DNA of 64,000 nucleotides from Aciduricibacillus chroicocephali (GTDB lineage: Bacteria > Bacillota > Bacilli > Bacillales > Amphibacillaceae): the NCBI RefSeq assembly GCF_030762805.1, contig NZ_CP129113.1:944001-1008000 (forward strand), in the 5' to 3' direction. The number at the start of each line of letters is the position of its first letter. Positions within the stretch are counted from its first letter, which is position 1. The notes below the pieces were generated by a model. It made no database searches, was not told the origin of the DNA, and saw nothing but the letters and a program-made list of their open reading frames with translations. Made by a program: the position numbers and the translations under genes. Shown piece after piece: positions 11,077 through 14,165 of the stretch.

Positions 11077-11149
11077 GATTCCTTAGCTCAGCTGGGAGAG
11101 CGCTACCTTGACAGGGTAGAGGTCGCTGGTTCGAGCCCAGTAGGAATCA
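11077..11149 (+). tRNA. tRNA-Val (anticodon GAC)
   Basis: A complete cloverleaf can be drawn: acceptor GATTCCT/AGGAATC, D-arm GCTC/GAGC with AGCTGGGA loop, anticodon arm CTACC-TTGACAG-GGTAG, variable AGGTC, and T-arm GCTGG-TTCGAGC-CCAGT. The anticodon is GAC, reading valine codons. The discriminator A is at 11149 and CCA is not encoded. The 3' half of this gene (from 11108) is duplicated at 13736, marking it as an integration site. Confidence 0.96.
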
Positions 11150-11164
11150 TCGAGTGAGAAGAGC
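11108..11164 (+). repeat. Left direct repeat (tRNA-Val 3' half), attL-like
   Basis: Bases from the anticodon loop to 15 bases past the tRNA end. It is identical to the copy at 13736-13792 except for one C-to-A change, in the T-arm. Confidence 0.85.
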
Positions 11165-11205
11165 TTGAAATCCTTTATTTGTAAGGGGTTTGAGCTCTTT
11201 TTCTG
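11159..11205 (+). terminator. Terminator of the tRNA-Val gene
   Basis: An imperfect 17-bp stem starting AAGAGCTTGAAATCC at 11159 and closing with the GGGGTTTGAGCTC segment, followed by TTTTTCTG. A diverged version of the same hairpin follows the repeat copy at 13736. Confidence 0.7.
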
Positions 11206-12066
11206 TTTCCATTTATAGTGTTTTATAATATTGTAAGCGGGGCGTGGCATGATTTGTTTAACGGATGCTATTCTCTAAATAAAATACTATCCAATCGGAG
11301 CCGAGCTAGTTGCTGCATACTCTAGTAGTTAAGCAATTATACGGCAAGAATATGAAACGAAAAGCCAATAATAATAAATCCTCAAAGTTACAAATCCATA
11401 ATAAAAGCTGTAAATTCTTTAGTTCAAGAGGATTCGGAACCCTAGAGTACCTAAATAGATACTTTGTTATACGGAACAAGATGCGAAATGCTATAATGTT
11501 TATTATATTCACAGTTATGTAATTTTTATCATTTATGGTAATTTTGTATAATTTACAATCACTGATTGGCGGTTTGGAATATATGCTTAAGTGCAAAGCT
11601 GGGAACCTCGATGATGCTGCTGTTTTATACCTGAGTTTCTTCAACTTATCATTAGCTTAAATAAGCATATGCAGTTTCGCCCACATACATAATGATAAGC
11701 ATCATTGACCTTAGCCAATCGAAACACTTCCGTACTTTTACTGCAAGAAGTCGTTCCCACTTCTCTAAGACTAGCAATTCAGTCTGAAAACAGCAGTAAA
11801 GACCTTGCCTAATGATTGCTACGTTGATTTTCTGCATTGGCTCAACTAACCTTATCTGTTATTTATCGTGATTTAAGGGCGTTCCCACGGTTATGCTTTT
11901 AAGTAATTTTTCATGTCGAACTACTGAAACGAAAGCGTTTTGACAGAGGTGGTAGCTCTGACTCAAAAGGGATTTATTCTTTTTAAAATAAACAAAACCT
12001 TTTAATAAGAAAAATGCAATATTAAATTTTCGTTAACGGAAAGAATCAAATGTAACGGAGGCAAAG
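11206..12066. other. AT-rich gene-poor stretch inside the island
   Basis: About 860 bases without a convincing gene. Open frames of 60-112 codons on the minus strand lack ribosome sites and family resemblance. The stretch holds a 22-base repeat (11672-11693), a small hairpin AAACG-AAAG-CGTTT near 11928, and the leader of the OLD gene. The minus-strand frame ending near 11652 finishes IMYVGETAYAYLS and could be the decayed tail of a lost gene; I cannot identify it. Confidence 0.5.
11672..11693. repeat. 22-base repeat, copy 1
   Basis: This segment, beginning CAGTTTCGCCCACATAC, recurs at 14115-14136 with one mismatch. One copy lies inside the OLD island, the other just after its right repeat. 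Confidence 0.7.
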
Positions 12067-13536
12067 ATGTATATAAAATCTATGAAGGCACAAAATTTCA
12101 GGTCTTTGAAGAATGTCAAAATTGAATTCAAACCAGGATTTAATCTAATCATTGGGAAAAATAACACGGGTAAATCAAATATTTTAAAGCTTCTACAACG
12201 CATCTTTGTAGATGACTGTAAATTTTCTCAAAGTGATTATTCGAAAATTAATAATACTAATCAAATGGCACCAGAATTTGTCATTGAAACATCCCAAGGT
12301 AATTACATGAAGAATAATGAAGCTTATTACGCTGGTTCAAAAGTAAGTTTTAATGATTTCTTAAATAAGTTGGGTGATTGGCATTTAATATTTATTGATA
12401 TTCAAAAAGAGTATAGTGATTTTATAAAACTCGTTTTTGAGGAGTACAATAATTTAGATAAGAACAGCAAAACTATACTTGATACTCAAATTAACATAGA
12501 CTTTAGTGAAGTTATGGGGATGGGTAATTCAATATATTTCAAAGAAGACTCGATTTACGTAATTGATGAGTATGCTGATACCTCGGAGTTGGAAAATAAA
12601 AGTACTGGTGTTCAAAGAGTGGCATTATTAATTTGTTTAATAAATTTATTTAAGATTAAGAAGAAAATAAGTCACTATATACTGTTAATTGACGAACCAG
12701 AAGGAAACTTACATGTTAAGTCACAAAAGAAAATGCTTGAATTACTAAAAAGCTTTAGTGAAGATCATCAAGTTATAATCTCTTCACATTCCACAATTTT
12801 TATGAAGGATTTAGATTTAGATGCTGTAAATTATATTGATAGAGATAAGAACACTGGATCCTATGTTGACAATAAGAATCTCGGCTTGGAAAACTTTAAA
12901 AAAATTAGAGATGTACTAGGTCTGGATTTGAGTGATACTTTGTTCCTGAATAAGAATATTGTTGCTGTAGAAGGGATGAGTGAAGTCATTCTACACTCCT
13001 ACATATATGATAGACTAAATAAAAACAAGTCTGACTTCACCTTTTATACTATTGAAGGCGCTGATAATGCGCTTCAGAATATCATAGCTTTAAAACAGGT
13101 ATTAAATAAGGACCTAATAATTATTCTTGATAACGATTCTAAGGGTATTAAGATAGCAGAAGATATTAGGAAAAATACCTTTGTTAACAAGTCTAGAATA
13201 TTTATGCAACCTAACGATACTATTAAAGGTGAATTGGAAGATCTTTTCCCTAAAGATTTTATTAAAATAGTTATAAGCAAATTTATAGAGCTTCAGCGTA
13301 GTGTAATTACAAAAAACTTGGGCGAAAACGCAGAGGAAAAATTAAATGGTTATATTGGAAAAATAGAAAGCTTCGACAAGTTTTCAGAAGTCGAAAGAAT
13401 AGGAGAGGGAGACAGTTCTTATATATTTAAAGGGCAGTCTTTTGTGAAATTTATTAAAAGGAATCTAGAAGAACTAAACGATGAAGACTTTCATTCTACT
13501 GTAAAGGAATTTGAGCTATTATACGATCAATTTTAA
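12067..13536 (+). CDS. OLD-family ATPase/Toprim nuclease
   Basis: A 489-residue protein with an SMC/ABC-type ATPase domain followed by a Toprim domain, the layout of OLD (overcoming lysogenization defect) nucleases. Walker A is GKNNTGKS at residues 30-37, a signature-like STGVQR follows, Walker B is LLIDEPEGNL with Asp209 and Glu210, and VIISSHS supplies the H-loop. Toprim residues are Glu302 (VAVEG) and Asp355/Asp357 (ILDNDSKG). Class 1 OLD proteins act alone; class 2 (GajA) work with a UvrD-like partner, and none is seen here. Known members nick or cut DNA and several defend against phage. It is shorter than typical full-length OLD proteins (about 550-600). Codon use is AT-rich and the gene sits alone in a tRNA-bounded island, which indicates transfer. 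An AACGGAGG ribosome site precedes the ATG. Confidence 0.88.
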   Translation: MYIKSMKAQNFRSLKNVKIEFKPGFNLIIGKNNTGKSNILKLLQRIFVDDCKFSQSDYSKINNTNQMAPEFVIETSQGNYMKNNEAYYAGSKVSFNDFLNKLGDWHLIFIDIQKEYSDFIKLVFEEYNNLDKNSKTILDTQINIDFSEVMGMGNSIYFKEDSIYVIDEYADTSELENKSTGVQRVALLICLINLFKIKKKISHYILLIDEPEGNLHVKSQKKMLELLKSFSEDHQVIISSHSTIFMKDLDLDAVNYIDRDKNTGSYVDNKNLGLENFKKIRDVLGLDLSDTLFLNKNIVAVEGMSEVILHSYIYDRLNKNKSDFTFYTIEGADNALQNIIALKQVLNKDLIIILDNDSKGIKIAEDIRKNTFVNKSRIFMQPNDTIKGELEDLFPKDFIKIVISKFIELQRSVITKNLGENAEEKLNGYIGKIESFDKFSEVERIGEGDSSYIFKGQSFVKFIKRNLEELNDEDFHSTVKEFELLYDQF

Positions 13537-13735
13537 AAAAGGTTGAAGTAATTTTTATTTAAACAAGCTCAAATAATACTGGCATCATCGTGGGCATTAA
13601 TATATGAAACGCTAAATAACAAACTAACATTTAAAATTACAACTCAACAATAAAAGCCACAAATCCCTTGTTGCAAAAGGACTTGCAGCTATTGTCGGTA
13701 ACAATAAAACACTAACGATAATTGACGTCACGCCT

Positions 13736-13792
13736 TTGACAGGGTAGAGGTCGCTGGTTCGAGCCAAGTAGGAATCATCGAGTGAGAAGAGC
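13736..13792 (+). repeat. Right direct repeat (tRNA-Val 3' fragment), attR-like
   Basis: Matches 11108-11164 at 56 of 57 positions but lacks the 5' half of the tRNA, so it cannot make a tRNA. A hairpin like the tRNA terminator follows, with a different base composition in the stem but the same pairing. Confidence 0.85.
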
Positions 13793-14165
13793 CTAAATTC
13801 CTTTAGTATTAAGGAGTTTGGGTTCTTTTTCTGTTTCCTAGCGTATTGATTTTTCTATTAAAATGTGATTGAGGTGTTTCGATTTCAATAACGGTATTGA
13901 TTTAATACACCCTTCTCTATATTTACAGCGCAATTGTTATTTGAATTGAAAATATATCTGTGAGTATCTCAATAAGACTTTTGAAAATAAGGGCATTGAC
14001 TTTGAAAGCCCCCTGTCACTAAAATTAAAATCCGTGACAGAGGGGGAGTGTAGTATTACATCTATATTTTACTCTAAAGTTGTGAACTTTGATCATATTG
14101 TATTTGACCTATATCAGTTTTGCCCACATACATAATTAGCGTTATTCGTAACTATTTACCGAAAA
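13793..14165. other. Intergenic region after the right repeat
   Basis: About 370 bases with no gene that I can support. It holds a terminator-like hairpin at about 13787-13832 (GAGCC...GGTTC with TTTTTCTG), a hairpin with GCCCCCTGTCAC/GTGACAGAGGGGG near 14009-14047, and the second copy of the 22-base repeat at 14115-14136. Confidence 0.5.
14115..14136. repeat. 22-base repeat, copy 2
   Basis: Begins CAGTTTTGCCCACATAC; 21 of 22 bases match copy 1 at 11672-11693. On the minus strand both copies could encode IMYVG followed by K or E and T. Confidence 0.7.

Follow-up and report, generated by a model that had tools for sequence, protein, structure and literature searches.

The locus considered here raises the question of what a short AT-rich segment, flanked by two copies of the 3' part of a tRNA-Val(GAC) gene and encoding a single predicted nuclease with no recombinase, represents in the genome of Aciduricibacillus chroicocephali. 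It could be a small defence cassette that moves with the help of others, an undescribed system, or what is left of a larger element. The window, which is the whole stretch of DNA that was analysed, is 64,000 nucleotides long, and all coordinates are those of the window unless stated otherwise. The collection contains no genome of the genus other than the source genome itself (2.73 Mb in one contig), and the comparisons were therefore made with relatives from the family and the order. We read the segment at 11108-13838 as a decayed, integrase-less, att-flanked element of the CIME type that retains one Class 1-like OLD gene, and put the probability of this reading at roughly 0.8.

The only tRNA that ARAGORN reports in the window is tRNA-Val(GAC), which is complete and lies at 11077-11149 on the plus strand (Rfam RF00005, 62.2 bits). 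From position 11108, inside the anticodon arm, its 3' part forms the beginning of a 103-nt direct repeat (11108-11210 and 13736-13838, both on the plus strand; 90% identity, spacing 2628), which runs through the tRNA 3' end and a spacer and stops at 11210, past a Rho-independent terminator. The sequence-only reading had reported the 3' half of the tRNA repeated 2,628 bp downstream with one mismatch in 57 bases, which is correct, and the repeat proves to be longer than stated as it continues through the terminator. Of the 42 bases that belong to the tRNA, 41 agree between the copies; the other, a C that is A on the right, lies in the T-stem. The right copy (attR side) lacks the tRNA 5' half, with 0 identical bases upstream of the repeat start at 11108, and thus cannot be a tRNA; the left copy (attL side) belongs to the complete gene. 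A 30-base probe from the repeat, allowing up to 3 mismatches, occurs twice, against 0.00 expected in shuffled sequence. Terminator hairpins are predicted in both copies, at 11156-11202 on the left (-22.6 kcal/mol, z -3.9 relative to shuffled sequence) and at 13784-13830 on the right (-26.0 kcal/mol, z -6.1), and the differences between them preserve pairing. Since the two terminators differ yet stay paired, the repeat ends have the look of homologous sequences with separate host origins, not of a recent duplication at this locus.

The same tRNA has been used by other elements. A detached tRNA-Val(GAC) 3' half starting at the same base (TTGACAGGG) is present in at least 17 of the 397 order genomes, in 13 genera; the count is a lower bound, the pattern demanding an exact match to TTGACAGGG and any base but C in front of it, and a control pattern gave no match among the matches listed. 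Three IMG/VR viral contigs also contain the half copy. In the five genomes with the full tRNA and a half copy in one stretch (that of the window, G162, G099, G246 and G274) all repeats start at the same base, none extends upstream of it, and they reach into the terminator to a varying extent. The distances from tRNA to half copy are 2.6 kb in the window, 4.6 kb in G246, 6.9 kb in G099, 9.0 kb in G274 and 48.7 kb in G162. Intact integrases are found at the site in G162, G274, G303 and G506, truncated ones in G246 (270 aa) and G316 (125 aa), and tandem half copies in the relatives G303, G316 and G506. A direct repeat of the tRNA 3' part thus stands at both ends of the window island, as it does for other elements at this site, and the 3' end of tRNA-Val(GAC) is a genuine integration hotspot in the order.

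The cargo at the site varies greatly. The 49-kb island of G162 (L042-L044) carries a tyrosine integrase next to the tRNA, along with a HerA-type ATPase and a type III CRISPR Cas10 operon, and G274 has a 9-kb satellite-like element with an integrase, regulators and a primase. In G099 a serine recombinase, not a tyrosine integrase, lies beside the tRNA-Val repeat (L069, 6441-7643), with ABC transporter cargo. G506 contains, between two tRNA-Val half copies, an integrase together with a 665-aa OLD-like ATPase (AriA-like by PADLOC) and an AIPR/AbiU-like protein (L083, 1623-3569 and 5028-7025), the latter two possibly constituting an unlisted defence pair. Different cargo between the same repeats, proposed earlier as a check on the idea of an integration site, is accordingly found in relatives (G162, G274, G506, G099, G246 and G316), and the claim of a foreign insertion at the tRNA draws support from the att repeats, the hotspot and the base composition of the insert.

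The interior of the island is AT-rich, as had been noted: G+C is 0.31 at 11211-13735 and 0.40 in the window, and the OLD gene itself, at 0.294, has the lowest value among the 47 window ORFs of at least 150 aa. This gene (12067-13536, plus strand, 489 aa, preceded by a GGAGG ribosome binding site at 12057-12061) is also the single convincing one between the repeats. The stretch to its left (11211-12066), probably decayed element DNA, has no gene or RNA family recognisable in Pfam, PHROGs, Rfam or DNA searches, and the small ORFs of 60-112 aa at 11306-11837 have no support as genes; on its right, no ORF of 60 aa or more lies within 13537-13735. The DNA of 11211-12066 matches nothing in phages and nothing elsewhere in its own genome. 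A retron-like non-coding RNA upstream of the OLD gene was considered and rejected, as Rfam returned only the tRNA and one sub-threshold chance match.

Two further repeats were noticed here. A near-identical 26-nt motif (core CAGTTTYGCCCACATACATAA) has one copy in the island, at 11669-11693, and a second beyond the right repeat, at 14112-14136; with up to 3 mismatches allowed, the rest of the genome contains no other. Near each end of the island, in addition, lies a copy of a diverged repeat of about 85 nt (11349-11432 and 13601-13681), the second copy including a minus-strand terminator-like hairpin; these could be integrase arm sites or the trace of a tandem insertion.

No recombinase lies in the segment, as the sequence-only reading had it, and a decayed integrase in 11211-12066 was considered and rejected after several searches. 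Translated in six frames and read across stops, 11150-12067 had no match in PHROGs and one irrelevant weak match in Pfam, tblastn with the G162 and G209 integrases gave only chance-level scores on the 0.86-kb non-coding stretch, and DNA searches likewise returned nothing above chance. The neighbours of the island encode GGDEF-EAL, deaminase, permease, GntR and ABC transporter proteins. Elsewhere in the host, matches to PF00589 comprise three open frames of about 300 aa, which from their size would be Xer-like, two near-identical clusters with frames of 675 and 295 aa, and some fragments; all lie away from the island, and no phage-type integrase is found beside it or is evident in the host. The two tyrosine recombinase clusters lie in opposite orientation (G000:C1:1254713-1256822 and 2601417-2603526; L091-L096) and, judged by size, are probably a Tn554-type transposon.

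The assignment of the encoded protein to the OLD family, made initially by inspection, is borne out by several searches. Pfam identifies AAA_15 (6e-26) and AAA_21 (6e-18), both above cut-off, whereas the OLD Toprim model, with its cut-off at 23.2 bits, falls slightly short on the window protein at 22.0 bits and reaches 42.7 and 54.5 on the two relatives. PADLOC ranks Old first (2e-27), followed by AriA and GajA, and the best solved-structure match of a three-row profile is Thermus scotoductus OLD (TsOLD; 6p74, 1e-15). The Walker A (G30-S37), Walker B (I208/E210-E212) and H-loop (H241) features of the family ATPase are kept in the alignment, D209 of Walker B being replaced by E in the G1249 protein. 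At the C-terminus, the Toprim acidic residues E302, E306, D355, D357, E389 and E391 are invariant among the three aligned relatives, and by order and spacing E302, E306, D355, D357 and E389/E391 match TsOLD E377, D381, D431, D433 and S478/E480, residues for which metal binding was shown by mutation (PMC7049728). The metal-binding set of the family is thus present, and the gene is intact. The fold assignment rests on sequence profiles, and the AlphaFold model from the three-row alignment has a pLDDT of 34.

The protein had been described as short for its family, a point that carries little weight: TsOLD has 525 aa (PMC7049728) and the nearest relatives 515 and 518, so that 489 residues is somewhat short and not remarkable. 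Both its length and its context fit Class 1 among the OLD proteins (PMC10568477), the context because there is no UvrD-like helicase, reverse transcriptase or AriB partner among the neighbours; no other gene is present in the island. At the level of structure, Class 1 is marked by a dimerisation insert within the ATPase and lacks the helical insert that follows the Toprim in Class 2.

Relatives of this protein are scarce. None of the other 158 family genomes has a homolog passing 1e-40, a strict threshold, and absence from the family is meant in that sense. Whole-genome searches of the order, class and phylum samples, which are subsets, recovered one relative in the order (G209, 515 aa, about 29% identity) and one elsewhere in the phylum (G1249, 518 aa). 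Phage and plasmid records contain no match, and searches of IMG/VR and GTDB contigs for close relatives returned short stretches of unrelated ATPases only. With the window protein these two make up a small, rare OLD subgroup, at 27-28% identity in a multiple alignment.

The setting of the G209 gene is informative. Immediately on one side of it is tRNA-Arg(TCT), and on the other a tyrosine integrase and then an ImmA-like gene; a second copy of the tRNA-Arg 3' part and terminator, 92% identical, is found about 70 kb away. The OLD gene of G209 is thus cargo at the edge of a complete element whose att sites are built as in the window island. This element (L045 7050-10655 and L111 3060-3158) spans roughly 70 kb with an att repeat that includes the terminator, and a weaker third copy of the tRNA end is present about 10 kb beyond the far repeat (L111 13564-13623). 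In G1249 the OLD gene is about 6 kb downstream of tRNA-Arg(TCT), in the same rph-rdgB neighbourhood as in G209, and no integrase was seen near it.

These observations suggest how the island could have arisen. A tyrosine-recombinase element, whether prophage, satellite or integrative mobilizable element, would have inserted in the 3' half of tRNA-Val(GAC), bringing a spare tRNA 3' end and terminator such that the tRNA stayed functional with the left copy, the displaced end becoming the right copy. An internal deletion would then have taken out the integrase together with almost all the rest, so that one cargo gene remained between two att sites, the arrangement that defines a CIME-like element. 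The layout seen in G209, of att, OLD and integrase in that order, offers a possible starting point, as a single deletion that started at the integrase and stopped shortly before the far end would give the arrangement in the window. We infer this deletion route from the layout of the locus, the searches having recovered no trace of the lost genes.

Two other accounts of the island's origin were weighed. The sequence between the repeats could be a functional non-autonomous cassette of 2.6 kb, moved by integrases acting in trans or by adjacent elements in cis; were this so, an OLD gene between two functional tRNA-Val att sites would be spreading on the borrowed integrases of elements at the same tRNA. 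Preservation of both att copies over the tRNA part, the many elements in the order with suitable integrases at this site, the tandem half copies in G303, G316 and G506 and the intact OLD gene are all consistent with such movement. We nonetheless regard it as improbable, as there is no second copy, the gene is in this genome only within the family (at 1e-40), phages and plasmids provide no match, a phage-type integrase is neither beside the island nor evident in the host, and 0.86 kb of the interior is featureless as in decay. Truncated integrases at the same site in G246 and G316 also make decay a simpler account than mobilisation in trans.

A purely local event, in which the tRNA 3' end and terminator were duplicated in tandem with no mobile element and unrelated DNA drifted in between, is very unlikely. 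It would explain why the repeat includes the terminator and why the sequence right of the repeat has the 26-nt motif in common with the island, but not why the repeat starts at the exact base used by mobile elements at tRNA-Val in other genera, why the terminators have diverged as if from different hosts, or why the interior gene is foreign in composition. A larger duplication involving homology right of each repeat copy was rejected, as those stretches align no better than shuffled sequence. Decay of an integrated element is thus the account that we prefer.

As to the function of the gene that was retained, we infer that it is expressed and under selection, and by analogy with characterised OLD proteins it probably protects against phages. 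The ABC ATPase domain would sense a phage-linked state, and the two-metal Toprim nuclease would then cut nucleic acid, with abortive infection or phage interference as the most likely outcome. Such phage-triggered activation of the nuclease is likely, judging by P2 Old and its relatives. According to work cited in PMC13261556, P2 Old reacts when RecBC is inhibited and reportedly cleaves a host tRNA, and YbjD shows that an OLD protein can sometimes do without its Toprim domain (PMC13261556). That the gene encodes a nuclease for housekeeping or repair, comparable to archaeal Cran1 of class 5, is a less favoured interpretation that we think unlikely; some OLD proteins do have non-defence roles (PMC12796447), but the patchy presence of the gene, its foreign composition and its association with mobile elements, in the window as in G209, speak against it.

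Beyond this island, the analysis shows that elements in the order dock repeatedly at tRNA-Val(GAC) and supply it with a new terminator as well as a new 3' end; the stand-alone OLD proteins gain a rare subgroup with a testable activity.

Comparison with described systems places the parts of this locus within known kinds. P2 Old is prophage cargo, and the window gene resembles it in also being cargo of an integrative element. Class 1 OLD proteins are stand-alone, examples being P2 Old, T. scotoductus OLD, Vibrio cholerae OLD and Escherichia coli YbjD (PMC10568477, PMC13261556), and the window protein shares with them the stand-alone gene, the N-terminal ABC ATPase with Walker A and B and the C-terminal Toprim with its two-metal acidic set; it differs in having 489 rather than the 525 aa of TsOLD, in its low sequence identity and in its membership of a rare subgroup otherwise made up of the proteins from G209 and G1249. 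GajA of Gabija, a Class 2 OLD, has the same domain order, and GajA models are among the best profile matches, but the window protein is shorter and no UvrD/PcrA-like helicase (GajB) occurs next to it or among the neighbours examined. Phage satellites and P2/P4-type defence hotspots (PMC9122126) likewise place defence cargo, here putative, in an integrative element, and a 9-kb satellite-like element occupies the same tRNA in G274; the window island, with its one gene, differs in lacking an integrase and primase, replication, packaging, packaging-interference or regulatory genes. The closest parallel is with CIMEs, the ICESt1-type remnants (PMC5704250) that keep att sites and lack integration and transfer genes, as the window island does, its repeats being present with no recombinase or transfer gene; it also lies where elements accrete in tandem in relatives. 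It differs in being down to one gene and in that its parent may have been a phage, a satellite or a conjugative element. The earlier suggestion of an undescribed system is therefore not sustained, a stand-alone OLD being established as Class 1 (PMC10568477, PMC13261556), and both the window element and its OLD gene belong to known kinds.
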